Assembly (NCBI RefSeq): GCF_000186865.1
Contig: NW_008705571.1
Coordinates: forward strand, 427,702 to 491,701
DNA length: 64,000 bases
Origin: Aureococcus anophagefferens
Lineage: Eukaryota > Sar > Pelagophyceae > Pelagomonadales > Pelagomonadaceae
Direction: 5' to 3'
The notes beneath the pieces were generated by a model. It made no database searches. It had not been told where the DNA came from and was given only the letters and a program-made list of their open reading frames with translations. A program made the translations under genes and the position numbers. Of this stretch, positions 6,157-58,683 are shown piece after piece; position 1 is the first letter of the stretch, and each line of letters begins with the position of its first letter.

Positions 6157-9100
6157 ATGCCGCAGGCCCACAATGCGGCGGCTCTGAAGAACACGACGAA
6201 CACGGCGCCGGCCGCCGACGACGACGCCCCCGCGCCGACGACGGCCGCCGCGAAGCTCGCCGCCGCCGCTCGGGGCCGGACCGAGTCGAAGCCGAAGCCG
6301 TCGTACCGGGCGTTCGGCGGCGGCCCGTCGCGGAGCACGTCGCGCCCGGCGACGGCCGCCGCCCGGAGCAAGTCCCGGGGCCCCGCGGCGGCGCGCAGCG
6401 CGACCGCCCCCCAGCCCGGCCGGGCGGCGACGACGCTCCAGGCGGCGGCGCGGGGCCGGACGGGCCGGCGGCGATCGATGGAGGTCGCCAAGGAGCGGTT
6501 CAGCTACCTCAAGTCGTCGACCGTGGCCGCGCGGCGGGGCGCGTCGTCCGTGACGGCGACGACGACGGCGGCGTCGCGGAGCCGGAGCAGCGCGCGGCCG
6601 TCGGCGTCCGGGCCCGCGAAGTCGCGGTCGCCGCCGCCGCCCGCGGCGGCGCCGCGGCCGTCGACCGCGGCCGCGGTGTCGCGGTCGGCCATCATGCCCT
6701 GCGCGCGCGCGCGCCTCGCGGCCGCGGCCGCGGCGGCGCCGGGCGAGGCCGCCGCGCCCATCGCCGAGGTCGAGAGCGAGGCCGCGCTCCGGGCCGCGGA
6801 GCAGATGAGCACGATGCTCGAGAGCGTCGGCAAGGCGCCGATCGTGCCCGGCCTGCTCGTGACGACCTTCGCGGGCTCGACGGACGAGGACATCGCCGAG
6901 GCCTGCGAGAAGATGCGCGCGCCCAAGGGCCAGCGCTGGGACGTCACGGCGAAGATCAAGGCGCGCGACGAGAAGCTCGGCGCGCTGCGGTCGCTGCTGT
7001 CGCGCGTCGCGGAGCAGCGCAAGGCCTTCGGGACGCTCGTGTCCCAGATCGAGGTCAAGCTCCTCGCGACGGCGGCCGAGGAGCGCGACAAGGCCGACAA
7101 GGCCGACAAGGCGCTCGTCGCGGGGAGCGGCCTCGGCGACCGGCTCGAGCGCATCGAGTCCGAGCGCGACCAGGCCCGGGAGGCCGCGAAGCTCCTCGAG
7201 GTCAAGCTCGCGGCGGCGGCGACGGCGCGCGACGCCGCCGAGGCCGCGGCGGCCGAGGGCAAGGCCGAGGCCGCCGAGCTCAAGGAGTCGCTCGGCGCCG
7301 CGAGCGCGGAGCTCGTGAGCCTCAAGGAGGCGTCGATGCGCGACGCGGGCCTCGTCGAGGGCACGCTCCTCGCGGGCCAGGACCGCACGGCGGCGCAGGC
7401 GTCCCGGGTCGCGGCGGCGGAGCGCGAGCGCGACGAGCTGCGCGCGGCCCTCGCCGAGGCGCGCGCGGGCCTGAGCGTCGCGACCGAGGGCAGCTCGGCG
7501 ACGACCGCGGCGACGGAGCGGCTCCTCGCGGACGCGACGGCGGAGCGCGACGCGGCGCGCGCGGAGGCCGCGGCGGCGCGGCGGTCCCTCGCGGACCAGA
7601 CGGCGGCCATCGCGCGCGCCGAGGGCAAGGCGGAGATGGCGTCGGCGCACGCGACGGAGGCGCGCGCGGCGCTCCTCGTCGCGCAGCGCGACGCGGCCGA
7701 GGCGCTCGCGCGCGCGCGCGTCGCCGACGAGGCGGACCAGCGGCGCTTCAGCGAGCTCGAGGTCGCGCGCCACGACGAGCAGGACAAGGTCAGCGCCGCC
7801 GTCGCGGCCTGCGACGCCAACGTCGCCAGCGCGCGCGCGGAGGCGCGCGCGGCCGAGGCGCGCGCCGCGCACCTCGAGGCGTCCGTCGCGAGCCACGCGG
7901 ACGCGCTCCAGGCGCTGCGGTCCGAGCTCGCGGCGAGCGAGGCGGAGCGCGACCGCCTCGGCGAGGCGAGCGCCCGCGCCGACGGCGGCGCGGCGGAGAC
8001 GCGCGCGGCGCTCGCGGCCGCCGAGGCCGCCGCGCGCGACCTCCGGGGCCAGCTCGACACGCGGCGCGCGACGGACGAGGTGCGCACGGAGGAGCTGCGC
8101 CAGCGCGCGGCGCGCGCCGAGGAGGAGCGCGAGCGCCTCGCCGCCGAGGTCCTCGCGAAGAGCGCCGCGGTCGCGGAGCTCCGGCTCCGCGCCGAGGCCG
8201 CGGAGAAGGCGCTCGCGGCCGCGGAGGCGCGCGCGGCGGACGCGGACGCGGCGCGGGGCGACGCCGCGGCGGAGCGCGACGCCCGGGCCCGCGACGCGGA
8301 CCTCGCGGAGCAGGCGCGCGCCGTCGAGGCGTCGCTGCGCGCGACGGCCGAGGCCAAGGAGGAGCGCGAGCGCCGCGAGCGGACGGCCGCGCTCGCGCAG
8401 CTCCTCGCGCTCCAGGGCCGCTGCGATTTGGACCGCGCGGCCTTCGAGGCCGAGGCGGCGGCCCTCGGCGACGACCGCGCGGCCAACGACGCGGCGCTCG
8501 CCGCGCGCGCGGCCGCGGACCGCCGCGCGCTCGACGCCGCGACGGAGGGCCTCGCGGCGCGCGAGACGGAGCTGGCGTCGCTGCGCGCCGAGCTCGACGA
8601 GAAGAACGAGATCGACGCCAAGGCGCAGGCCCTGGCCCTCTCCGAGGCCCGCGGCGAGGTCGAGGCCCTGCGGCGGCGCCTCGCGGCGACGGAGGAGGCG
8701 ACGCGCGACGCCGCGGCGACGTGCGAGGGCCGCGTCGCGGAGATGGAGGAGAAGCTGCGCGACGCCGACGTGACGCGGCGCAAGCTCCACAACACGATCC
8801 AGGAGCTCCGGGGCAACATCCGCGTCTTCGCGCGCGTGCGGCCGTTCCTGCCGAGCGACGGCGCGGCCGCGGACGCGCCGCCCGTCGTCGTCGACATGGC
8901 CGACGGCACGTCGCTGACGCTCGCCGCCGAGGACGACGACGCCGACGGCGAGCCCTTCGGCGACAAGAAGCGGAAGCGCCGCAAGGAGCTCTTCTCCTAC
9001 GACCACGTCTTCGGCCCGTCGACGGGCCAGGAGCGCGTCTTCACCGAGGTCGCGGAGTTCGTCCAGTCCGCGCTCGACGGCTACCAGGTCTGCCTCTTCT

Positions 9101-10606: not shown

Positions 10607-13600
10607 ATGCCGGCGGCGCGGTCCAGCGGCTACTGGCCGTGGGCTTGGGCGGCGCCGGCGCCGGCGCCGGCCGCCGGGCTTCCAGCGGCGCTCGGCGCCG
10701 GCGCCGCGCGNNNNNNNNNNNNNNNNNNNNNNNNNNNNNNNNNNNNNNNNNNNNNNNNNNNNNNNNNNNNNNNNNNNNNNNNNNNNNNNNNNNNNNNNNN
10801 NNNNNNNNNNNNNNNNNNNNNNNNNNNNNNNNNNNNNNNNNNNNNNNNNNNNNNNNNNNNNNNNNNNNNNNNACAACCTGGACACGGGCGAGACGACGTG
10901 GGAGCGGCCCGAGGTCGAGGAGGAGGAGGAAGACGAGGAGGAAGAAGAAGAGGAGGACGACGACGACGAGGGCTGGGCCATGCGCGCGGCGCGGCACCAC
11001 TACGAGGGCGGCGTCGCGCACGACGAGCCGACGCTGCACCCGGCCGACGAGCTCCGCGCGGCCGTCGAGCCCATCGCGTACGAGCCCGCGGAACGGGCCG
11101 AGGGCCGGGGGCTCTTCCCCGCGGCGTCGCCCTACGGCGACGCGACGCCCCGCCACGACGACGACGACGAGGCCGACGCGCCGCGCCGGTCGTCGGCGTC
11201 GAAGCTCTTCGGCGTCTCGGCCGTCGCCGAAGAGGAGGAGGAGCGCGAGGAGCGCCGGTCCTCGGCCTCGAAGCTCTTCGGCGTCTCCGAGGTCGCCGAC
11301 GAGGAGGAGGAGCCCCAGGAGCGGCGCTCTTCCGCCTCGAAGCTCTTCGGCGCGTCCGCGGAAGAAGACGAACCCCAGGAGCGGCGCTCTTCCGCCTCGA
11401 AGCTCTTCGGCGCGTCCGCGGAAGAAGACGAACCCCAGGAGCGCCGGTCTTCCGCCTCGAAGCTCTTCGGCGCGTCCGCGGACGACACGGACGAGGACGA
11501 GGCCGCGGACTCGTTCGGCTCGATGCCCGCGTTCGCGCTGCCGCCGACGCCCGTCGCGCACCACCAGGAGCCGCCGTCGTTCCCGAGCGCGGGCTTCCAG
11601 TCGAAGAAGAAGCGCATCCGCGACAGCTGCTACCAGCTCTTCTCGGCGCACCGGCCCAAGGCGTCCCTGCTCAAGGCCATGGCGCCGCTCGTCGGCCTCT
11701 TCAAGATCGTCCGCCTCGTCGAGCGGGGCCCGGAGCAGGAGGCCGCGCCGCCGCCGAGCGGCCGCCGGCGCATGTCCGTCGCCCAGTTCGCCAAGGTCTC
11801 CGTGCCCATCGACGCCTGGCACTTCATCGCGCCCCTCGGCGCGGTGCTCCGGGGGCTACGCGTCGACGAGAGCGAGTTCGGCTGGCTGTTCTGCAGCCAG
11901 GGCGGCCTGGAGACGCTCCTGCGGGCCATCGTGGTCATGCCCCAGCTCCCGGCGCACCGGGGCACGAAGGGCCGGGGCCTGCCCGTGGTCATGGCCGAGG
12001 CGCTCGTGCTCAAGTGCGTCGCCGCGCTCCTCCGCGACGAGGACGCGATCCTCGGCCTCGTGTCCGAGTCGACGGAGGACCTCGAGGCGCTCTTCGCCGA
12101 CGTGCTCGTCGCGCGCAAGTCCTGGGTCCGCGTCGGCATCGTCGTGCGCACGCTCATCGCTTTGTGCGTGGGCGACCGGCCGGCGGACGGCGGCGGCGGC
12201 GACGACGCGGAGGACTTCGAGGACGCGTCGCCGTCGCGCGTCGCCTGGTCCGTCGTCGACGCGCTCGCGCGCTACGCCGGGCCCGAGTCGTCGGCGGCGT
12301 CGCTCCACAACGGCGCCATCGTGCCCGTCGTCGTGCCCTACGGCGAGGCGGGCGCGAAGAACGACCCGCCGCTCTCGCTCGCCGTCGCGCCGCCGCGGTT
12401 CTACGACCTCGCCATGCTGCTCCTGCCCATGGTGCCCCTGGCCGTCGCCCGCGCCGCCGTGCGCCTCCTGCGCGCCCTGGCGTCGTCCCTCGAGGCGCGC
12501 CGGGGCCGGCGGCGCGCGCGCGCGGAGATGTCGTACGCGATGCGCGTCGTCGCGGACGCGCACGGCATCGCGCGCGACGAGGGCGACGACGCGCGGCGCA
12601 CGGGCGCCAAGACCTGCTTCTCGTGCTGCGCGCTACTATCCGTGCTGCGGCGCCGCGCGCGGAACCTCGCGCCCGACGCGGCCGCGGCGCCCGACCAGGC
12701 GACGCCGCCGCAGTCGCCGCCGTCGACGCCGACGGCGCCGCGCCGCGACCTCGTCACGCACCTCGGCGGCGACGAGGCCTCGCCGTCGGACGCCGGCAGC
12801 GCGCGGTCCGTGCGCTTCGGCGCCGTCACCTACAGCGACCCGCCGCCACTCGAAGCGCCCGCGGCGCCCGGCGGCGCGTGGGCCGAGGGCGAGGTCCACG
12901 CGGGCGAGACCCGCGCGTCGTCGGCGCGCCTCGACGCCGACGAGGACAGCGACGACGACGACGACCCGGACGAGAGCGAGGCCCTGCGCCTGCTCCGGGC
13001 CGTCGACGGCCTCGAGGCGGACGAGCGCGCGGACGCGGCGCTCGACGGCGGCGACCGCGCGGGGACGGCGCTCGCCGCCGTCGCCGACGCCGTCGAGGCC
13101 GCCCGCGTCGAGGCGGCGACGGACGGCCCCATCGCCGCGGCGCTCGTCGACGCCGTCGCCGCGTCCGTGCTCCGCGCGGCCGCCGGCGGCGCGACCGGCG
13201 CCGCGCTCCGCGACGCGCCCGCGTACCGGAGCGGCATCGCGGCCCTGAACGGCTGCGTCGCGCGCCTCGCCGTGCTGCGGCGGTCTGCCAAGGACGGCGT
13301 CGACGACGACAGCGTCCAGTGGCAGATCGAGACGTCGCGCGGCGCGGACGAGTTCGAGGAGGCCGAGAAGCGGCTCGAGGAGGCCGAGCGGGCCTACGCG
13401 GACCTGAGCCACCGCTGCGACCGCGCGCGGCGGGCCCACCAGCTGTTGCGCACGCACGGCGCCGCGCGCTGGCTCGCCGCGGTCCTCGACGCCAGCGACG
13501 GCGCGGAGGCCGCCGCGCGCGGCGGCGGCGCCGGGCCGGCGGCCGCGCCGGGCCGGCGCGCGAGCCGGCGCATGTCGCGGCGCGCGAGCGTCGCCCCGAC

Positions 13601-46506: not shown

Positions 46507-48079
46507 CTACCAGACGCCCCCGACCTTGGCCACCGTGGCCTCGTCCGCGACGCCGCACGTGTTCGCGTCCATCTGGAGGCGGATGTAGCCGTCCTCGCCC
46601 CAGGACGTCGACCAGGAGTTGCGCACGATCCAGTAGGGCTCCTCGCCCGTCGCGTCGTAGCCGACGAGCTGGACGCAGTGGTCGATGTCCGCGTAGGCGC
46701 CGGAGCACGCGTCGTACCGCAAAACGCCGCCGGTATAATCGTCCCAGGCGCCCGCGTTGACGCAGACGGCCGCGGGCGTCGCCTGGATCGTCTTCGCGAG
46801 CTCGCCGAGGTCCTGGTCGGCGCAGAGGCCCTCGCCGCAGGGGTCGGTGGCGAAGGCGTAGCCCTCGACCTGTGTGGAAATCAACCAGTGAGCTGGGACG
46901 TCCCGACCAAACTTTGAAATTCTCTAGCTCGGTCAAATCGAAGTCGATTCGGCTGATTTTTGGACGGATCGATTGCTCTCGTCGAGTTCTCGAAGCACAG
47001 CGGAAGTGCTTGTGTCAAAACATTCGAATACGCGCACATTGAAGTCGGGTTGAAGATTTGATTTGCACACAGGCCTCGACGGTCGCGTAGGGGCCGATGT
47101 AGTCGTACTCCGTCACGAGCTCGCTCAAATCCATGTCGCAGGCGTTGGTGCAGAAGGGGCCGAGGCACTCCTCGTCGGGCGTGAGGGCCTGCGTGTAGGG
47201 CCAGTAGGCCGCGGGCGACAGGCCGATCGCGCCCTTGATGTAGTCGTACGCGACGGTGACGTCGCCGCCGCCGCAGCCGAAGCAGCAGCCCTCCTCGGGG
47301 TCGTCGATGTACTTGGCGCAGGACGTCACCTGCTGGGCGCTGAGCACCACGGGCGGGCCGCCCGCGAGGTAGAACTGGGACTCGACCTGCTCCGTCGTCG
47401 AGAACGCCCAGCACGAGCCGCACTGGCCCTGGTTCTTCACGGGCGTGAGCACGTCGTCGACCTTGCGCCAGTCGACCTGGCCGTCCTCCCAGTCCACGTT
47501 CTTCGCCTTGGACCGCCACTCGTCGACGTCGAACTTCTCGTACGAGTCCTTGTACGTCTCGAACATCCCTCGGTCCTTGCGGCCGCGCGCGAACGCGGAC
47601 GTGCCCGGCGCGCGGTCCGCGTGCGCCGTGACGCCGAAGACGGGCTTGCCGTTGAGCGCGTTCTTCTCCGCGAGCTCGGCGACGCGCGCGTGGTAGTAGG
47701 ACCGCTTGAGCGCCTCGTCCTCGGGGCTCGCGTAGCTTTTTCGGAACCGCGCCTTGAACTCGATCCACTCCGCGTCCTCCGCGGCCGTGTACTCGACGTC
47801 CGGCACGACCGCGAGCGGCACGACCTCCGTCGTCGCTGCCGCGGCGGCGTCGTCCGTCGCGGCGTCTTTGAAATCGATGTGGCCGCCGTTCGTTGCTACG
47901 CCAAGGATGATCACCGCAGCAGCGCCGACCGCGATCATGGCCGTAGCGCCGCGCCAGCGCGCGCAGGGCCTGATCTGCTCCTTGGTAAGAGGAGAGAGCT
48001 CGTCGTCGAGCGTCTTCGAGCCATACTCGTCCATGATCGACGAGGTCGAGTCGAGGCAGCCCGGGCGCGCAGGACTCAT
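46507..48079 (-). CDS. Papain-family (C1A) cysteine protease, membrane-anchored, with introner
   Basis: Exons 47081-48079 and 46507-46869; 453 aa. The N-terminus has an uncleaved-looking hydrophobic anchor (ATAMIAVGAAAVIILGVA), then an I29-type propeptide (IEFKARFRKSYASPEDEALK). The mature enzyme has VDWRKVDDVLTPVKNQGQCG with the catalytic Cys in GSCWAFS, the catalytic His in DHCVQLVGY, and Asn in IVRNSWSTSWGEDGY. Splicing out 46870-47080 joins GPYAT to VEGYAFATDP without gain or loss, which supports the intron. It probably works in the lysosome/vacuole or at the cell surface. Confidence 0.92.
46870..47072 (-). mobile_element. Introner element B (203 bp) forming an intron
   Basis: On the coding strand the element starts CTGTGTGCAAATCAA and ends TTGATTTCCACACAG, inverted repeats matching at 14 of 15 positions. 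It is flanked by GTCGAGGC (47073-47080) and GTCGAGGG (46862-46869), an 8-bp duplication with one change. The GT donor lies in the upstream copy and the AG acceptor is the end of the element. It shares CGTCCAAAAATCAGCCGAA (46948-46966) and other short blocks in the same order with element A, so both belong to one family. Confidence 0.88.
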
Positions 48080-48266: not shown

Positions 48267-49181
48267 CTACGCGGCGCCGGGCCGGGGGAGCATCTCCGGG
48301 TCGCAGAGCTCGGCGTCGAAGACGACGGCGCCGGGGCCGTCGTCGCCGGGCATCGGGCCGGTCCGGAACAGGAACTCCTCGAGCTTCGGGGGCTCGAAGG
48401 TCCGGACGTCGAGGTCGCGCAGGGCCTTCTCCTCGAGCTGTTCCAGGAGGTCGTCGTCCTTGTAGCGCATCTCCATGAGCTCGAGGTCGCTCGGCGGCGG
48501 GCGGTCGTCGCTGTCGAACTTTGGGATCTCAAAGTCCTTGACGAGGTTCGGCTCGTCGATGGCGTCGAGCGTCGCGATGAGCTCGTCGTTGTCGTGGAGC
48601 CGCCCGGCGGCGTGCTCGATGGGCTCGTAGTCGTCGCGCCAGCCGCCGTAGGCGCAGCTCGAGCCCGCGCGCATCTCCGCCGTGACGTCCTCGGGACCCA
48701 GAATCACCCGCGGGACCTTCGGCGCGGGCTCGGCTTTCGGGATCTCCGCGGGCTTCGGCGGCGCGGGCGCGGCTTTCGGCGCCTCCGCGGGCGCGGGCGC
48801 GGCTTTCGGGACCTCCGCGGGCGCGGCTTTCGGGACCTCCGCGCGCTGGGACAGCGCCTTGATGGCGCTCTTGGCGTCCGACAGCGGCGCCCGGAGCTGC
48901 GACTTGGCCGGCGTCGCGAACGTGAGCGTCCGCCCGGGCGTCGCCGAGGGCTTGAGGGCGCTCTTCGCGCCGTCGCGCGCCTTGTCGCCGACGGCCGTGT
49001 TGCCGTTCTTTATGTCCCCAAAGGCCACGCGCTTCGTCGTCGTCGGCGCCCCGAGGGCCTTGCGCGCCACCGGCGTGAAGAGGCTCTTCTTGAGCGCGCC
49101 CGACTTCTTCGTCGTCGTCGGGGCCGCCGCCGGCGCGTCCTCGAAGAATTTGATCGCCGTCGCGCGCTGGGGGAGCGCCAT
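48267..49181 (-). CDS. Securin/PANS-like candidate with destruction-box motif
   Basis: A 304-aa disordered protein. The N-terminal part is Lys-rich and has SLFTPVARKALG, which contains an RxxL destruction box of the type used by the APC/C (ARKALG, very close to the securin box), followed by RVAFGDIKNGN, which recalls the ALGDIxN box of cyclin B and plant patronus. The middle is a set of PKAAPAP repeats. The C-terminus is acidic and hydrophobic, as in securins (separase-binding side). A securin role is inference from layout; it could be another cell-cycle substrate. It is divergent to VPS26C. Confidence 0.45.
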   Translation of the reverse strand: MALPQRATAIKFFEDAPAAAPTTTKKSGALKKSLFTPVARKALGAPTTTKRVAFGDIKNGNTAVGDKARDGAKSALKPSATPGRTLTFATPAKSQLRAPLSDAKSAIKALSQRAEVPKAAPAEVPKAAPAPAEAPKAAPAPPKPAEIPKAEPAPKVPRVILGPEDVTAEMRAGSSCAYGGWRDDYEPIEHAAGRLHDNDELIATLDAIDEPNLVKDFEIPKFDSDDRPPPSDLELMEMRYKDDDLLEQLEEKALRDLDVRTFEPPKLEEFLFRTGPMPGDDGPGAVVFDAELCDPEMLPRPGAA

Positions 49182-49512
49182 CGTCTCTGGGGTCGATCGC
49201 AGCCCTGCGCGGGTGAGAGAGGGTCGGGTGCGGCTCGGGCGCGCGCGCGGCGCGAGTCAACGGCGTCGCGCCGTGTTCTGGCGGCGCGCGCGACCGTTCC
49301 GCCGTGTTCCGCCCAGAAAATATCGGCGTTTCGTGGTCTCCCGCGTGCAGTGCGCGCGCGGACGAGGTGTATGGTGTCAAGAAGGCCAGACACGGGCGCG
49401 CGCGCGCGTCAAACGCAGAGAGCTCGGCGCGCGCCAACAGCTGAGCAAAGTCAACTCGCGCGGGCCCCGATATTGCGGCCAAAGTTTACCGCCGCTGCCC
49501 ATCCACACAAGC
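49182..49512. other. Bidirectional promoter region
   Basis: 331 bp between the divergent securin-like and VPS26C genes. The CAGCCC at 49198-49204 is a weak match to the window's GGCAGCCC motif. No gene is recognised. Confidence 0.4.
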
Positions 49513-50436
49513 ATGGCGGCCCAGTCGGAGATCGAGCACAGCACGCTGGAAATCGCGCTCCGGCGCGTGGACCGCATCTACCGGCCCGGCGACGTCGTCG
49601 ACGGGAAGCTCATCGTGAGCGCGCGCAAGGGCTGGGCCCACAAGGGCATCTCCATGAAGGTCACGGGCAGCGCGCAGCTGCAGCTGTCGCACCGGTCCAT
49701 GGGGCTCTTCGAGAGCGTGAGCAGCGTGCGGCCGCGGGAGCTGTTGCGGACGCAGATCGAGCTGACGCCGCCCGGGCGCTTCCCCGACGGCGTCACGGAG
49801 ATCCCCTTCGAGTTCGAGCTGCAGGCGCTCGCCGGCGAGGCGCTGCACGAGAGCTACCACGGCGTCTACATCAACGTCTGCTACACCATGGCCTGCGAGT
49901 GCAAGCGGGGCGTCATGTCCAAGCCCCTCGAGCGCGACATCGAGTTCATCGTCGAGGTGCCGTCGAAGGAGAGCCCGCCAGCGGACCCGCGCGCGTTCTC
50001 GATCACGCCGGAGTCGCTGGAGAACGTCCGCGCGTCGTCCGTCGCCGCCATCCCGCGCTTCAAGGTCTCGGGCAAGCTCCACCGCCAGTCCTGCCCCATC
50101 AACCTGCCGTTCACGGGCGAGTTCGTCGTCGAGGAGTCCCAGGCGAGCGTCAAGTCCATCGAGCTCCAGCTCGTCCGATCCGAGACGGTCCGCCACCCGG
50201 AGAGCGGCAACACCGCGCGGGAGGCGACGGAGATCCAGAACATCCAGATCGCCGAGGGCGACGTCTGCCGCAACCTCGTCATCCCCATCTACATGATCTT
50301 CCCGCGCCTCTTCACGTGCCCGACGATGATCACCGACGACTTCAAGGTCGAGTTCGAGGTCAACCTCATCGTCATCTTCGGCGACGGCTACATGATCACG
50401 GAGAACTTCCCCATCAAGCTCCACCGCTACCGCTGA
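49513..50436 (+). CDS. VPS26C: VPS26C (DSCR3), Retriever complex subunit
   Basis: A 307-aa arrestin-fold protein of the Retriever complex, which recycles membrane cargo from endosomes. The match to VPS26C is nearly continuous: VDRIYRPGDVVDGKLIVSA, PGRFPDGVTEIPFEFELQ, YHGVYINVCYTMACECKRG, RDIEFIVEVP, SIELQLVRSETV, EATEIQNIQIAEGDVCRNL, PIYMIFPRLFTCPTM and the C-terminal ITENFPIKLHRYR. It is distinct from the retromer VPS26A/B. Intronless; the length equals the family's. Confidence 0.95.
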   Translation: MAAQSEIEHSTLEIALRRVDRIYRPGDVVDGKLIVSARKGWAHKGISMKVTGSAQLQLSHRSMGLFESVSSVRPRELLRTQIELTPPGRFPDGVTEIPFEFELQALAGEALHESYHGVYINVCYTMACECKRGVMSKPLERDIEFIVEVPSKESPPADPRAFSITPESLENVRASSVAAIPRFKVSGKLHRQSCPINLPFTGEFVVEESQASVKSIELQLVRSETVRHPESGNTAREATEIQNIQIAEGDVCRNLVIPIYMIFPRLFTCPTMITDDFKVEFEVNLIVIFGDGYMITENFPIKLHRYR

Positions 50437-50464: not shown

Positions 50465-53400
50465 TTACCGCTTCTCGAAGGCGAAGAGGCCGAAGAAGAG
50501 GCACGTGAGCAGGTCCGCGCCGGCGCCGAACGCGACGAGCGCGAGGTGGTCCGCGAGCGCGTCGTCGGCGTCGAAGCCGAAGCAGTGGAGGATGGCCTCG
50601 CCGGGATAGGGACCCGTGCGAATTTTCGACGAGCCGACCTTGGACGAGATGTAGAGATCCTCGACGAGCGCGAACTCGTGCGCGACCAAAGCCTCGTACG
50701 CGTAGGACATGGGCAGGCACGACGCCAGGGCCCGCCAGACGGGCGCCAGGTCCGCCGGGTTGATGAAGAAACCGCTCAGCAATAAATTGAAGAGGAGCAG
50801 CAGGCTCGTCGCCGCGCTCGCGATCGCGTTCGAGCTCGCGACCGCGCCGACGGCGCGGCCCGTCGCCGCGAGCACGTAGTGGATCTGGAAGGCGGCGAGC
50901 ACGAAGCCCAGGGCGTGGTTGTAGGTCTTCGCCGCGTGGCTCAGGCCCACGACCAAGCCCGCGAGCGCCAGCGGCGGCGCGACGCGGAGCGGCAGCGCGT
51001 CGCCGACGTACGCGGCGGCCGCGAACGCCTGCGCGAAGCCGTAGGAGTCGCGCTCCCGCGCCAGGAGCCGCGCCGCGCGCCGGCTCCTCGGCGGCGCCGA
51101 CAGCGCCGACAGCCCCAGCGACGTGCAGAGCACGAACGCGAGGCCCAGCCGGTCCTGGATGCCCGCGGCCTGCCCGTTCCGCGACGGCAGGTCCTCGTAG
51201 ACCAGCCCGAGGATGGCTCCCACGACGAGCGCGGGGACGTACTGCAGCACCAATAGAGGCCCGTCCCGCAGGCACTGGCGCCGCTCGCGCGTCGCCAGGA
51301 GGCAGAGCGCCTGGAAGCCGCCGACGGGCGCGGGCCGCGCGCGGCGCCGGCCGCGCCTTTGGGGCGACGGCGCATCCGCCGCGTCCGACGCCGCCACCGC
51401 CAGCCCGCCGGGCGCCTGGGCGAGGTCGAGCATGGCGTCGGCCGGGTTCGAGGCCATGGGCCCGTCCGCGGCGCGCGCGTCGAGCGCCGCGCGGACGTCG
51501 GCCGGCGTCCCGCAGACGCGGAGCCGCCCGCGGACGAGGAGCGCGACGCGGTCCAGCGCGACGAAGATCTCGCGCCGCGGCTGGTGGAGCACGGCGACCA
51601 CGGTCACGCCGAGGCGGCTCACGTCCTGGAGGCGCCGGCAGACCACGAGCGCCGTCGCCGCGTCCAGGCCCGTCGTCGGCTCGTCGCAGAACAGCAGCTG
51701 CCGCTTCGCGAGCAGGGTCGTCGCGAGGGTGACCCGCCGCCGCTGGCCGCCGCTGGCCTTGCCCAGCCGCGTCTCCTCGTAGCAGCGCGCGTCCAGCGCC
51801 AGCGCGTCGGCCTCGGCGCGCGCGACGCGCCGCTTCCGCGCGGCCGGCCACGCGCCCGGGAGCCGCAGCTTCGCGTGGAACGTCAGGTGCTCGCGGCACG
51901 TGAGGTGCGGGGGCAGCACGTCGTCCTGGGGCGCGAAGGCGCTGCTGAGGCGCCGCTGGCGCGCCGTCGCGGCGTCGAGCGTCCCGCCGTCGACGGCGCC
52001 CGGGCCCAGAAAGTGGCGCCGGCTCAGGTCCACGGCGCCCCGCGCGCGGCCCGACGTCCGCCGCCCGGCCAAAACATCCAGCAGCGACGACTTGCCCGCG
52101 CCCGACGGCCCGAGCAGCGCCGTGACGCCGCCCGGCGCCGCGGACAGCGACACGCGGTCGAGCACGGGCGCGGCGACGCCCGCGAGCGCGAGCGACACGT
52201 CGCGGCACGCGAGCCGCGGCGGCGGCGCCTCGCCGAAGAGCGCGTCGTCGTCGTCCTCCGGCGGCGGCAGCGGCGCCTCGGGCGGGGGCACGCAGGCCGC
52301 GGCGACGGCGAGGCACGCGGCGCCCGCCGCGGAGACGCACGCGAGCGCGAGGAGCGCGCGCGACTTCGGCGCGACGGCCAGCAGCGCGGGCAGCGCCGCG
52401 GGGCCGACGTTGAGCAGGGCCCCGACGACGCCCGTCGCCACGGGGAGCGCCTCGGGCGGCGACACGACCGTGATCGTCGCCCAGAAGAGCGTGTTGAAGA
52501 CGGACCAGCCCGCGCTGAGGACCAAGGTGCCGTACGCGAGGCCGCTCGACCCGTCGCCGTAGTACGCGCCAAAGGCCAGGGGGAAGCTGAGCGCGCTCAC
52601 GGCCGCGGCGACGAGGCGCGCCGTGAGCGCCGACCGCTTTTTGTCCACCAGGAAGCCCACCGCGGGCCCCAGGACCACGATGGCCGCCTCGGGGCAGAGG
52701 ATGAGCCCGTCGGCCGCCGCGACGCTCAGGCCGAAGCGGCCCGCGAGGATCTTCGACCCGAGCGCGAGCCAGGTCACGGCGCCCGCGTAGACCAGCGCGC
52801 CGCCGAGGGCGTACCACCAGAACGTCGCCGGCAGCGCCGCCAGCGCCGCCTGGACCGGGAGGCGCGGCGGCGGCGGCGGCGCCGGCGACCCGTTGAGCGA
52901 CGCGTACGGCGCCCGGTCCCCTTCGACGCGGCGGACGACGCGCTGCGCGACCAGCGCGAACCCGAAACTCGCCGCGCCGACGGCGCCCGCGGCGTAGAGG
53001 GGCGCGTCGAGCCCGAAGGCCGCGAGGAGCGCCGGCGACAGGCCGAACGTCGCGACGGAGCCGACCCTCAACAGCGCGTTCGTGACCCCGACGACCTTGG
53101 CCCAGTCGTCGCGGAAGATGGGCCCCATGAACGGAATGCTCCCGAGGTCGATGGCCTCGTAGCAGGCGCCGAGCACGCAGCGCGCCCCGAGCAGCAGGGG
53201 GAAGCTCCGCGCGCCGACGCCCGCGGCCCAGAGCGCGTGGCCCGCGCACGCGCAGCCCGTGAAAAACACGAGCGGCGCCGTCGCGTCCGCCGCCGCCTGG
53301 GCCATGGCGCCGGCCACCAAGGGCATGAACACGTTGGGCACGTAGTAGACGTTGTGGAGCAGGCCGAACTGGAGGCTCGACATGGGCCACCGCGCCTCGA

Positions 53401-56400
53401 GCGCCTCTTGGAGCGCGCTCGGCGTGTCGCGCGCGTAGTGGTTCGCGAAGACGACGCCCCCGACGAGCGCCGGCAGGGCCCAGGCGATGGCCGGCCGCTT
53501 CGTTCGTAGCGCCTCGCCGCCGGCGTCGTCGACGCGGCGGAGCGGCGGCGGCGGCGCGGGCTCGCCGTCGGACCGCGCGTCGTCGTCCGTCAGCAGCCGC
53601 TCGCTCGAGCCCCACGCGTGGCCGAGGTGGCGCGGCACGGGCCGCCCCCGCGGCGGGCTGTCGCTCAGCTGGAGCTCCGGGTCGTCGACGGCGGGGATCT
53701 CGACGCTCCGGGGGCCGCAGACGGACCGCGCGCGCCGCGCGGCGCCCGACACTCGTTCCCGGAGCGTCCGGTGCCACGACCGGCCGCGCTCGTCGTCGCC
53801 GTCGGAGAAGTCCGGCGACGACTTGAGGGAGTGGGCCGCGGCCGCCACGCCGAGGCAGCAGGCCGCGACGAGCGCGAGGCGCGCGAGCGCGGCGTCCGCG
53901 GCCGCCGGCCGCGTCGGCAGGCTCAGCGTCGACAGGATCGCGTTCACGTCCACGGTGATGGACGGGAACGTCGGGTCGCACTTGTGGCCGTCGATGACGT
54001 AGCGCTCGAGGTGGCCCACCGTGTCCTTGGCGCCGGCGAACTCGCCGACGACGGCCGCGCGGAACGCGTAGAAGAGCGCGTCCGCGGCGGCCGCCGCGCG
54101 GACCAGCGACTGGCTCAGCGCCGCGACGACGCCGCCGCCGCCGGTCTCGATGGCCGCGCCGTGGTGCGCCGTCGTGTCGCTGTCGACGCCGACGGCGACG
54201 CCGCCGAAGAGCGCCGCGAAGAGCGCGCCTAAAGACCCGAGCGCGCTCGCGACGTCCGGCGGCGGCCGGAGCGCGCCGAGCGCGAGCGCGAGGGAGCCCG
54301 CGGCGGCGCTCGCGAGGCCCAGGGCGCTCGCGAAGCGTAGGGCGCAGAACCCCGCGCAGCGCGGCCGCAGGTTGCAGTAGGGGTAGACGACGAGCGCGAG
54401 CAGCAGCGCGGGGAGCACGCGCAGCAGGACGAGGTCGGACCCGAGCACGGACACGAGGTGCGGCAGCGGCCCGTACAAACCGCCGACGGCGACGCGCTCC
54501 GCGTCGGCGACGGCCGCGTCCTCGCGGAACGTCGACAGGGCGCTCAGCGCCAGGAGCTGGAGGAAGAAGAGCGCGAAGAAGATCGCGCCGATGCGCCGCT
54601 GCGCGCCGCCGAGGTCCTTGGGCAGGTCGCTGTCGATGGACCCGAGGCACACCGCCGCCGCGAGGGCGCCGCCGGCGTGGAGGCACAGGAGGCTCGGCGC
54701 GCGGAAGACGCGCAGCAGCTGGCGGTCCAGGAGGATGGCGAGCTGGCGCCGCGGCGGCAGCCGCTCGAAGCGCGCGCGCCGCAATACCTCGCGCGGGTCC
54801 GGCGCCTCGCCGACGGCGCCGGCGGACCTCGACCGCCGCAGGCCGGGCGCGAGGGCCTTGGACAGGCGCTCCTCGTCGTCGTCGCTGGACCCGCGGCGCC
54901 GCCGCCGCGCGGGCGACGGCGCGGCCGCGGCGCCGCCGGCGCCGTCGGGCGTCCGCGGCCGCTCGGGCGCCTCGTCGCCGCCGCCGTCGTCGTCGAGGCC
55001 GGCGAGGGCGCCGGCGCCGCGCGCGGCGATGGCGTCGAGGAGCACGTCGCCCGGGTTCTCGCAGCCGCCCGGCTCGAGCGCCGCGGCGACGCGCCGCGCG
55101 CGCGCGACGGAGCCGCGCCACGCGACGGCGCCTTTGCAGACAACGCAGAGGCCGTCCAAACTCAAGAAGATCTCGGGCCGCGGCTGGTGCATCGTCGCGA
55201 GCACGGCGACGGGCGCCGCGTCCGCGCCGCCGCGCGCGACGCGCCGCAGCGACCGCGCGAGGCGCAGCGCCGCGCGCGAGTCGAGGCGGCTCGTCGGCTC
55301 GTCGAGGAGCAGCGCCGCGGGCGTGCCCAGGAGCTCGGCGGCCACGGAGACGCGCCGCGCCTCGCCGCCGGAGACGCCGCGCTCGCCGTCCGCGGCGTCG
55401 TCGTCCGCGTCGCCGCGCGCGCCGAGCCGCGTCGCCGCGCACGTCTCGAGCTCGAGGACGGCGAGGACCGCGGCGACGCGCGCGGCGAGCGCCGCGGCGT
55501 CGGCGCGGTCGCCGAGGCGCAGCTCCGCGTGGAAGAGGAGGTGCTCCGCGACCGTCAGCGTCTGCGGCAGCGCGCCGTCGTCCTGGGGCACGAACGCGAG
55601 CGTCGCGCGCCGCTCCGCCGCGCAGAGCGCCGCGCCGCCGAGGGACACGGACCCGGAGACGCGGCCCCTGGCGCGGCCGCCGACGCAGCGCAGCAGGCTC
55701 GACTTGCCCGCGCCGCTCGGGCCGAGNNNNNNNNNNNNNNNNNNNNNNNNNNNNNNNNNNNNNNNNNNNNNNNNNNGCCGCTGATGCCGGCGACGGCGCG
55801 GCGCTGCTACCTGAACCAGAAGCACACGGGCGTCGACGGCTTCCCGCTCACGTGCCACGTGGGCAACTGCCTCTACAACGCGTCGCAGCACAACAGCACG
55901 CCGCCGTCGATCGTCGACGACGACGTCCACTTCCGCGAGCCGCGGCCCCAGCGCGGCGTCGTGCCCCAGCTCGTCGCCCTCGGCGCCGCCGTCCTCGCCC
56001 TCGCCGCCTCCGCGGCGGCGCCGAGCTCCGCGACGAGCGCGGCGCCGCGGCGCCGGAGCGGCGACGTCGCGTAGGCCGCCGCCGCGCCGGCGGCGAGGGC
56101 GAGGACGGCGGCGCCGAGGGCGACGAGCTGGGGCACGACGCCGCGCTGGGGCCGCGGCTCGCGGAAGTGGACGTCGTCGTCGACGATCGACGGCGGCGTG
56201 CTGTTGTGCTGCGACGCGTTGTAGAGGCAGTTGCCCACGTGGCACGTGAGCGGGAAGCCGTCGACGCCCGTGTGCTTCTGGTTCAGGTAGCAGCGCCGCG
56301 CCGTCGCCGGCATCAGCGGCTCGCTCGCGTCGAGCTCGCAGGAGAACGTCGTCGCGGGCCCGTTCCAGAAGATCTCCGTCGGCTGGCAGCCGTCCTCCGT

Positions 56401-57321
56401 GCCCGCGGCGCAGCACAGCGGGTTGTTCACGTGGTAGCGGTGGCCGTGCATGACGTCGTCGTCGTCGCCGTCCTTGGGCTTGCAGCAGCCGAAGACCGAC
56501 TTCTTGACGCACTCGTTCTCGCAGACGTAGTGGTGCTTGCACGGGTCGTACGTCCACCCGGGGCACTCGTCGAGGCCCGCGGGCGGGCAGTCGATGGCCG
56601 TGGCGCCGCAGGTCAGCGTCAGGCATTTCTTCGTATCGTCCCAGGCGCAGACGTCGTTGGCGTAGGAGCAGCCCGTGAGGTTGCCCTCGAAGTACGCCGC
56701 GTAGTCGTAGAAGTTCTGCTTCGGAAAGTGCACGTTGTCGTCGCGGAACGTGCCGAGGCGCCAGGCGACCTCGGCGCGCTCCGCGAAGGCGACGACGTCG
56801 AAGGACGCGCCGGGCAGGTCCGTGTACCCGCAGTACGCGTTCTCGATGCCCGAGCCGCAGGGCACGCAGCTGAAGCGCTTCCCGACGTCGAGCTCCTCGG
56901 CCGTCGGCTCGACGAGGCCCGCGGTGCAGTTGTAGGCGTCCACCGTCGTCCCCGTCTTCGGGTCCCGGCGCGACGGGCACGCGGCCAGCGTCTCGCAGAC
57001 GTCGCACGCGGTCCCGTTCCAGCCGTCGCAGCACCGGCCCCACGACCGCTCGAAGACGGCCGCGTCGCCGCGCGCGGGCGCGTTGAGCGCGGCCCACTGG
57101 TCGTTCCCCTGTTCGGCGCAGGCGCAGGTCGCGCAGTTGTCCGTCTGCACGTCCTTGTTCCCCTTGGCGCTCTCGAGGTACGCGAAGAGCGTCGCGTTGT
57201 TGGCGCAGGTCGGCGCCGTCTCCTTGGGGTGCGCGCACGCGGCGGACACGTCGTGGGGCACGACGGCGGCCGACGCCGCCGCGAGCAGCAGCAGCATGCG
57301 GCCGTGCGACGAGGGCGCCAT
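50465..57321 (-). CDS. Giant ABCG-MFS-ABCG fusion transporter with Cys-rich ectodomain (gapped)
   Basis: From the 5' end: signal peptide (MLLLLAAASAAVVPHDVSA); a ~380-residue Cys-rich ectodomain; TM (VVPQLVALGAAVLALAA); an inverted repeat and gap. Then, in one uninterrupted frame of ~1,754 codons (55726-50465): NBD1 (LGPSGAGKSS, GVSGGEARRVSV, ALLLDEPTSRLD), an ABCG TMD (about 54760-53830), an MFS carrier with 12 predicted TMs (about 53505-52280; first TM AIAWALPALVGG, MFSD1-like), NBD2 (LLGPSGAGKSSLLDVLAG, KASGGQRRRVTL, FCDEPTTGLDAAT) and a second TMD (about 51330-50480). The N-terminal ectodomain plus NBD-first order resembles plant and stramenopile ABCG24/28-type transporters. No stop separates the parts. 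The linker before NBD1 is lost in the gap. Confidence 0.72.
55727..55776. other. Assembly gap (50 N)
   Basis: A nominal-size gap between Walker A of NBD1 and one arm of an inverted repeat. The sequence linking the ectodomain TM to NBD1 is missing here. Confidence 0.95.
55777..56320. repeat. 232-bp perfect inverted repeat with 80-bp spacer
   Basis: Arms 55777-56008 and 56089-56320 are reverse complements. Both encode the same ectodomain end (from PLMPATARRCYLNQKHTGVD to the TM), the true copy being on the minus strand. The left arm abuts the gap. A chimeric fold-back in a read or contig end is the simplest explanation. Confidence 0.92.
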
Positions 57322-57453: not shown

Positions 57454-57497
57454 ATGATGGAGAGCCCGCACTTGGCGCTGCGCTCTAGGCTCGAGTG

Positions 57498-58683
57498 ATG
57501 ATGCGCGCGCTGCTCGCCGTCGCCGCGCTGGCGCGCGCCGCCGTCGTGAACGTGAGCTTTTCCCGCGGCGGCGCCTGGAGCCCGTCGCCGCTCGAGGCCT
57601 GCGTCTACGAGCCGCACCATTTGAAGAGCGGCAAGATCCACCACATCTGCCACTGCGAGCAGGGCACCTGGACGCCGACGGTCGGCGGGAACGCGACGCG
57701 CTTCGCGGAGGACGCCTGCGGGCTGCTGCGGAGCGAGCGGTTCCACTTCCTCGGCGACAGCATCGTCGAGCAGATCGCGAACGCGGTCGGGAACAAGTAC
57801 CTCGAGACCTGCCGGGGCAAGCTCGTCCACAACGAGATGAAGCGCGCGACCTCGTGCTCGCTCGTCAACTACGTCGCCCACGGCGCGTCCTGGGGCGCGC
57901 CCTGCCTCGCGAAGGCGCTCCTCCCGCGGCGCGGCGCGGGCGTCGTCCTCCTCGCGACGTCCGGCGCCGCGCACACGGTGCACGAAGCGCCGCTCACGGC
58001 GGCCTACGCCGCGGGACTCGCGGCGCTCCGCGCCTGCAACGGCGACGGCTGCGACCGCGCCGCGCTCGCGGCGGCGCTCGACGGCCTCGCGGCGCGCGGC
58101 GCCGTCGTCGCCGCGGCGCCGCCGAGCAAGTTCCACGACACCGTCACGGCCTACGCGGCGCAGCTGCGCGACGTCGCCGAGCGGGCCGGCGCGCGGGGCG
58201 TCGTCGTCCTCGACGCGCCGCCGGCGGGCGAGCACTGCGAGAACGCGTCGACGTGGCGCTGGCGCTCCGACGCCGACCGCGAGAAGCGGCGTCCTGTGGC
58301 CGTGATGATTTTCGAGAGATTTTGGGTGGGAAAACAATGAGAAATCGTCACCGTCATGCTTGGTAGGCGAGAAGTTCGCCTACTCCCAGTACGGCTACCA
58401 CTGGCACGCGATCCCCGGCGTCAACGCCATCTTCGCGGAGATCATGGCTGCGACGTTTGAGTCATCACCGGTGCCGCTCACCTACGTCGGCGGCTTCGAC
58501 GCGCTAGCGCTTCGCGAGCGCGCGCACACGGGCCACTTCGGCCTCACGCGCGACACCATGCAGAAGCCGTCGGCCTTCGGCGACTGGCCGGACTGCGTCC
58601 ACTGGTGCGGCGGGCCCCTCAACGCCTACGCGGACCTCGTCCTCGGCGGGCTCCGGGCGATCAGGGCCGTCGCGCGAGCGTAA
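57498..58683 (+). CDS. TBL/PC-esterase family protein, polysaccharide O-acyltransferase-like (2 exons)
   Basis: Exons 57498-58278 and 58367-58683 give 365 aa. A signal peptide (MMRALLAVAALARAAVV) precedes the domain. The SGNH-type nucleophile motif is FLGDSIVEQIANAVG, and the C-terminal DCVHWCGGPLNAYADLVL supplies the Asp-His pair. This pairing (GDS plus DxxHW) is typical of TRICHOME BIREFRINGENCE-LIKE and PC-esterase proteins, which acetylate or deacetylate cell-wall glycans. The intron uses a GC donor inside GCGAGAAG (58279-58286), which is repeated exactly after the acceptor (58367-58374). An alternative GT donor at 58291 also keeps frame. Tail-to-tail with another SGNH gene, 5 bp apart. 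Confidence 0.75.

Follow-up and report, generated by a model that had tools for sequence, protein, structure and literature searches.

To our knowledge, the two halves of known full-size ABCG members are separated by a linker only, and ABC and MFS proteins are otherwise found as separate chains. Plant half transporters of the ABCG24/ABCG28 type have a Cys-rich N-terminal extension before the NBD and no MFS, and in SUR1-Kir6.2 an ABC protein regulates another transport protein within a fixed complex. MFSD1 is described as a lysosomal dipeptide uniporter with GLMP as its partner; both ends of its chain are cytosolic, the two ends of the peptide are clamped by E150 and R181, and mutants of D60, E150 and R181 are impaired (PMC11252000). 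Here, we describe a locus in which the two kinds of transporter appear to share one chain. It lies in a 64,000-nt stretch (the window; G000:C11:427702-491701) of a 49.05-Mb genome in 86 contigs, and the GC content of the window in 2-kb steps is 0.64-0.80.

An initial annotation of this DNA had proposed one uninterrupted frame of about 1,754 codons, and this was borne out: the frame runs on the minus strand from 55726 to a TAA at 50465 (1,753 aa and the stop), with its first base directly bordering a 50-N gap at 55727..55776. A Pfam domain search also upheld the proposed domain order, NBD1-TMD1-MFS-NBD2-TMD2, with two ABC_tran and two ABC2_membrane matches and a single MFS_1 match (residues 775-1112 of the chain) in between. 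NBD1 is present from Walker A onward (55022..55726, minus strand, as are all parts of the frame; GPSGAGKS, signature SGGEARR, LLLDEPT, MHQP) and is followed by the first ABCG membrane domain (TMD1, 53831..54781), a linker of 109 residues (53504..53830), the MFS carrier (52286..53503), a Pro/Asp-rich linker of 24 residues (52214..52285), NBD2 (51407..52213; Walker A GPSGAGKS, SGGQRRR, LLFCDEPT, LHQP) and TMD2 (50468..51310). Consensus Walker A, signature, Walker B and H-loop motifs are therefore present in both NBDs, and the NBD is N-terminal to the TMD in each half, as in full-size ABCG transporters. Since MFS_1 sits where such transporters have only a linker between the halves, the chain is a variant of the full-size ABCG type and not an ordinary member. 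At a probability of roughly three in four, we propose a single minus-strand gene, running from 57321 to 50465, whose product is a full-size ABCG-type transporter that has a large Cys-rich, glycosylatable ectodomain at its N-terminus and an MFSD1-like carrier inserted in mid-linker.

The length of the open frame is weak evidence for coding at this locus, because the +2 sense frame across the same stretch also has 0 stops. Support for the coding frame comes instead from homology, codon-position composition and a paralogue. GC3 is 0.938-1.00 in the 11 segments examined, which include linker 1 (0.963) and linker 2 (1.0), and it is 0.979 and 0.990 in the two MFS halves. The initial annotation had given the MFS its own linkers on both sides, and both are indeed in frame and of coding GC3. 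When 4 of the 11 segments, those for the NBDs and TMDs of this ORF, were used to train a codon model, the ORF frame had the top score in 10 of 11 segments; the exception was a 25-codon loop in the middle of the MFS, where one antisense frame scored higher (0.23 versus 0.04). From residue 179 to residue 782 the frame contains no further Met, and homology to MFSD1 starts near residue 756. In this frame, the first segment of the MFS with homology to MFSD1 is thus not preceded by a start codon belonging to the MFS itself. An accident of the reading frame was considered and judged unlikely on the strength of the paralogue.

The paralogue was found through the ectodomain, for which a search of the same genome returned one other locus (4 candidates scored), with three blocks at C11:1139298-1140602. 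This locus (L037; G000:C11:1139298 to about 1144540, plus strand) reads Cys-rich ectodomain, TM, NBD1, TMD1, short acidic linker, NBD2 and TMD2. A single frame carries its last ectodomain block on through the TM segment to the beginning of NBD1; a break follows at Walker A, beyond which a further frame continues through TMD1, the linker, NBD2 and TMD2. Window residues 5-632 are 44% identical to the paralogue (632 columns) and residues 1172-1618 are 41% identical (472 columns), and about 58 residues separate the two matched blocks in the paralogue. The alignment breaks at the end of TMD1 and restarts at the acidic run preceding NBD2. The paralogue, then, has only a linker between its halves, and neither it nor any of 29 further ABCG loci gave a match to the MFS at E 1e-5.

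Each half of the window chain finds its best match in the paralogue (246 versus 125 bits and 202 versus 140 bits for the next match). A tree was built from 15 half-transporters, comprising these four halves and 11 others extracted by a motif filter from 29 ABC2_membrane loci. The first window half paired with the first half of the paralogue and the second with the second (100/100 each), and all four formed one group (100/99), in a data set where seven rows, including the first window half and both halves of the paralogue, have unusual composition and one long branch lies elsewhere. Since both halves pair one-to-one with those of an MFS-free relative, we read the window gene as one full-size ABCG-type gene with an MFS in the middle of its linker. 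The same pairing indicates that the two-halved pump predates the gene duplication, so that either the window copy acquired the MFS or the paralogue lost it. The spacing of membrane domains was also compared among the 13 same-strand neighbouring ABC2_membrane pairs that lie 0.5-6 kb apart, from 55 matches in the genome. The window pair has the widest gap, 2,871 nt versus 1,221-1,806 nt in the 12 others, some of which are perhaps adjacent half-size genes and two of which come from one cluster of three.

TMD2 of the paralogue is split by an introner-like element and resumes at L037:6646-7041. The element, at about 6451-6653, has a GC content of 0.49 and, by eye, an 8-bp direct repeat, GCTCCACT, on both sides. 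The window contains a single match to the 40-base core of the element (47021-47060, 1 mismatch), which sits at the open-frame end of a papain-family cysteine protease gene (47015-48079, minus strand; PF00112, 85.9 bits). Introners with 8-bp target duplications have been reported for Aureococcus (PMC9860276), and the paralogue element resembles them. Taken with the GC content and the size of the genome, this resemblance would fit a pelagophyte, which was also the guess of the initial annotation. Between the protease gene and the ABCG-MFS frame lies a convergent Vps26-family gene (48652-50436, plus strand; PF03643, 112.5 bits), the frame of which ends 28 nt from the ABCG-MFS stop.

The embedded carrier matches MFS_1 with 64.6 bits over most of the length of the profile (positions 22-346 of 347). 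Among PDB sequences, MFSD1 (8r8q) was its sole match up to E 10, at a modest score (E 1.8e-5, 27.2 bits). The match covers MFSD1 residues 49-195 and 276-434 and becomes very weak in its C-terminal half (8.6 bits, i-Evalue 7.4). D767, E857 and R887 of the window chain correspond to D60, E150 and R181 of MFSD1 and are identical to them, as are the equivalents of Y276, W373 and N397 in an alignment that includes the weak C-terminal half. Under the same caveat for that half, 5 of the 13 pocket residues named for MFSD1 (PMC11252000) are identical and 8 are changed (Y56, Y59, Q176, F280, Y365, Q393, Q396 and L400). Because the full substrate pocket is not shared, we classify the carrier as MFSD1-like and not as MFSD1, and a dipeptide-like substrate would be a lead, not a finding.

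Two earlier claims about the carrier need qualification. It had been described as keeping a conserved charged loop, and in the C-terminal half GFLVDKKRSAL does align with GLLVDKTGKN of MFSD1, but in the motif-A loop between helices 2 and 3 (GGFLIDR in MFSD1), the Asp is aligned with a Gln in the window protein (AGAMAQA). It had also been called a complete 12-TM carrier. Homology coverage of MFSD1 residues 49-195 and 276-434 suggests completeness, but a crude hydropathy scan did not separate 12 peaks in the MFS, with nothing over threshold before residue 817; the same scan also flagged stretches inside NBD1 and NBD2. A single-sequence AlphaFold2 model of the MFS alone had a mean pLDDT of 42.1, too low to confirm the fold. 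A search of the same genome, of a kind that could miss an intron-cut or strongly diverged gene, returned no stand-alone second MFSD1-like gene at E up to 10 (only the window matched; 4 candidates scored). PF07690 has at least 10 matches in the genome (9 of 176 candidates scored), in open frames of 439-592 aa, in a list that leaves out the window MFS itself and so says little about other fusions.

The initial annotation had placed a Cys-rich N-terminal domain across the gap, and such a domain is found there (56077..57321, minus strand), although the 50 N lie between it and the ABC part and hide the link between ectodomain and NBD1. It extends from an ATG at 57321 to about 56077 and comprises 415 aa with 32 Cys and 6 N-glycosylation sequons; by eye, its beginning resembles a signal peptide and its end a TM segment. 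No Pfam family was found for it, and it is 45-52% identical to the ectodomain of the paralogue in three blocks. That the domain belongs to the same gene as the ABC part is suggested by the paralogue, where the last ectodomain block, the TM and NBD1 follow in one frame, although in the window the gap intervenes. The chain as read begins at Walker A of NBD1 and, to judge from the paralogue, probably lacks a few tens of residues. Next to the gap, positions 55777..56020 are an inverted copy of 56077-56320 (244 nt, 2 differences), with a spacer of 56 nt between the arms and the repeat ending at the N run. Because it is the arm at 56077-56320 that continues the coding frame of the ectodomain and aligns with the paralogue, the flipped arm adjoining the gap is probably an assembly artefact, and the C-terminus that it lends to the ectodomain ORF (57432-55873) is probably false. 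A second N run, of 162 bases, lies at 10711-10872 of the window. Just upstream of the ectodomain, on the opposite strand, is an open frame at 57489-58340 (plus strand) with no Pfam family at E 0.001.

Since a gap and a probable inverted-repeat artefact lie 2.2 kb upstream of the MFS, we asked how well the architecture withstands the idea that assembly joined an MFS gene into an ABCG gene. There is no N from 55726 to 50465, and a chimera would need two false joins, both in mid-linker, on the correct strand and in frame, at the very places where ABCG homology halts (the end of TMD1) and returns (just before NBD2). We regard such a chimera as highly improbable, a judgement based on the paralogue, and we have good confidence that the architecture is real at the genome level. 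It is also very unlikely that the MFS block is a nested gene or alternative exon, spliced out of the main isoform and included or expressed in some transcripts. Introns do exist in this genome, and between the matched blocks of the paralogue lie short gaps as well as one introner-like element, which measures about 200 bp. However, the introner core matches the window only at 47021-47060, the MFS block with its linkers spans 1,617 nt, far more than the interruptions of the paralogue (roughly 50-200 nt), and the block shares its frame with its flanks.

Transcripts or protein processing might instead split the frame into ABCG halves and an MFS, and the first linker, at 109 aa, is long enough to lend this some appeal. 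We nonetheless find separate products improbable, as the region from 179 to 782 offers no in-frame Met and the linkers are of coding composition; in the paralogue, moreover, TMD1 and NBD2 share one frame, so that a separate MFS transcript in the window would still sit inside the ABCG gene. Proteolytic cleavage of the chain may nevertheless occur. Expression of the ABCG-MFS chain as a single protein is likely in our reading of the sequence. A single chain could still hold the MFS as a non-transporting passenger that serves as a membrane anchor, spacer or regulatory domain and has no carrier cycle. The Gln in place of the motif-A Asp and the 8 of 13 named pocket residues that differ from MFSD1, in an alignment with a weak C-terminal half, would fit a passenger; the frame, on the other hand, is unbroken over the entire MFS, and D60, E150 and R181, reported as critical, are identical. 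On balance, we consider a passenger role unlikely and favor an ABCG-type transporter with a functional carrier in its linker.

In such a transporter, the two ABCG halves would form one ATP-driven exporter, and the MFS, placed between membrane domain 1 and NBD2, may act as a facilitative carrier, its substrate perhaps a dipeptide or another small zwitterion. The C-terminal end of TMD1 and the start of NBD2 are both cytosolic in ABCG proteins. Since both ends of MFSD1 are also described as cytosolic, an insert at this position would be topologically acceptable. Fusion would fix pump and carrier at 1:1 in the same membrane, and its benefit would most likely be co-location on one pathway. With only 24 residues between them, NBD2 could possibly influence the carrier through its ATP cycle. 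The initial annotation had suggested that ATP-driven export might be coupled to the carrier, or that a substrate might pass between two pores; either form of coupling would be conjectural. The stronger proposal, in which the catalytic cycle of the ABC part would gate or drive the MFS within it and so link ATP hydrolysis mechanically to exchange of a peptide-like solute in one polypeptide, is speculative and rather improbable. ABC and MFS are two of the great transporter superfamilies, and this gene would be a natural fusion of the two with both parts apparently intact. The insert-free paralogue would provide a built-in control in studies of whether two kinds of transporter can be coupled, and the fusion could help to show how an ABCG pseudo-dimer accommodates another membrane bundle in its center.

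Word searches of open-licence papers returned no ABC-MFS fusion by title, which does not by itself show that none has been reported. In collections that are uninformative on algae, relatives of the MFS were sought among prokaryotic contigs (112 pattern matches, 0 confirmed) and viral contigs (14 pattern matches, 0 confirmed), and relatives of the ectodomain among viral contigs (2 pattern matches, 0 confirmed). Among PDB sequences, half-size ABCG2 ranks first for the chain, and the matches include CDR1 (9iuk), with its best stretch over NBD2. Of the NCBIfam models, TIGR00955 (pigment precursor permease) scores best for both halves and TIGR00956 (pleiotropic drug resistance) lower, with scores far under both curated cut-offs.

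Compared with these known systems, the locus shares parts with several. SUR1-Kir6.2 offers a model for coupling, but it consists of separate chains, an ABCC protein and a channel, and no sequence relation is implied. With the plant ABCG24/ABCG28 type, the window gene would share a Cys-rich ectodomain before the NBD, but the plant proteins are half-size and lack an MFS. With MFSD1, it shares the equivalents of D60, E150, R181, Y276, W373 and N397, in a carrier that is embedded in an ABC-type chain. The ectodomain, the TM and the order NBD1-TMD1-NBD2-TMD2 are common to the window gene and its paralogue, which differs in having about 58 residues in place of the MFS and in being interrupted by introns. 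Like full-size ABCG transporters of the PDR type, such as Candida CDR1 and yeast Pdr5, the window chain carries NBD-TMD twice; unlike them, it has an MFS between the halves, a Cys-rich ectodomain before NBD1, and consensus motifs in both NBDs.
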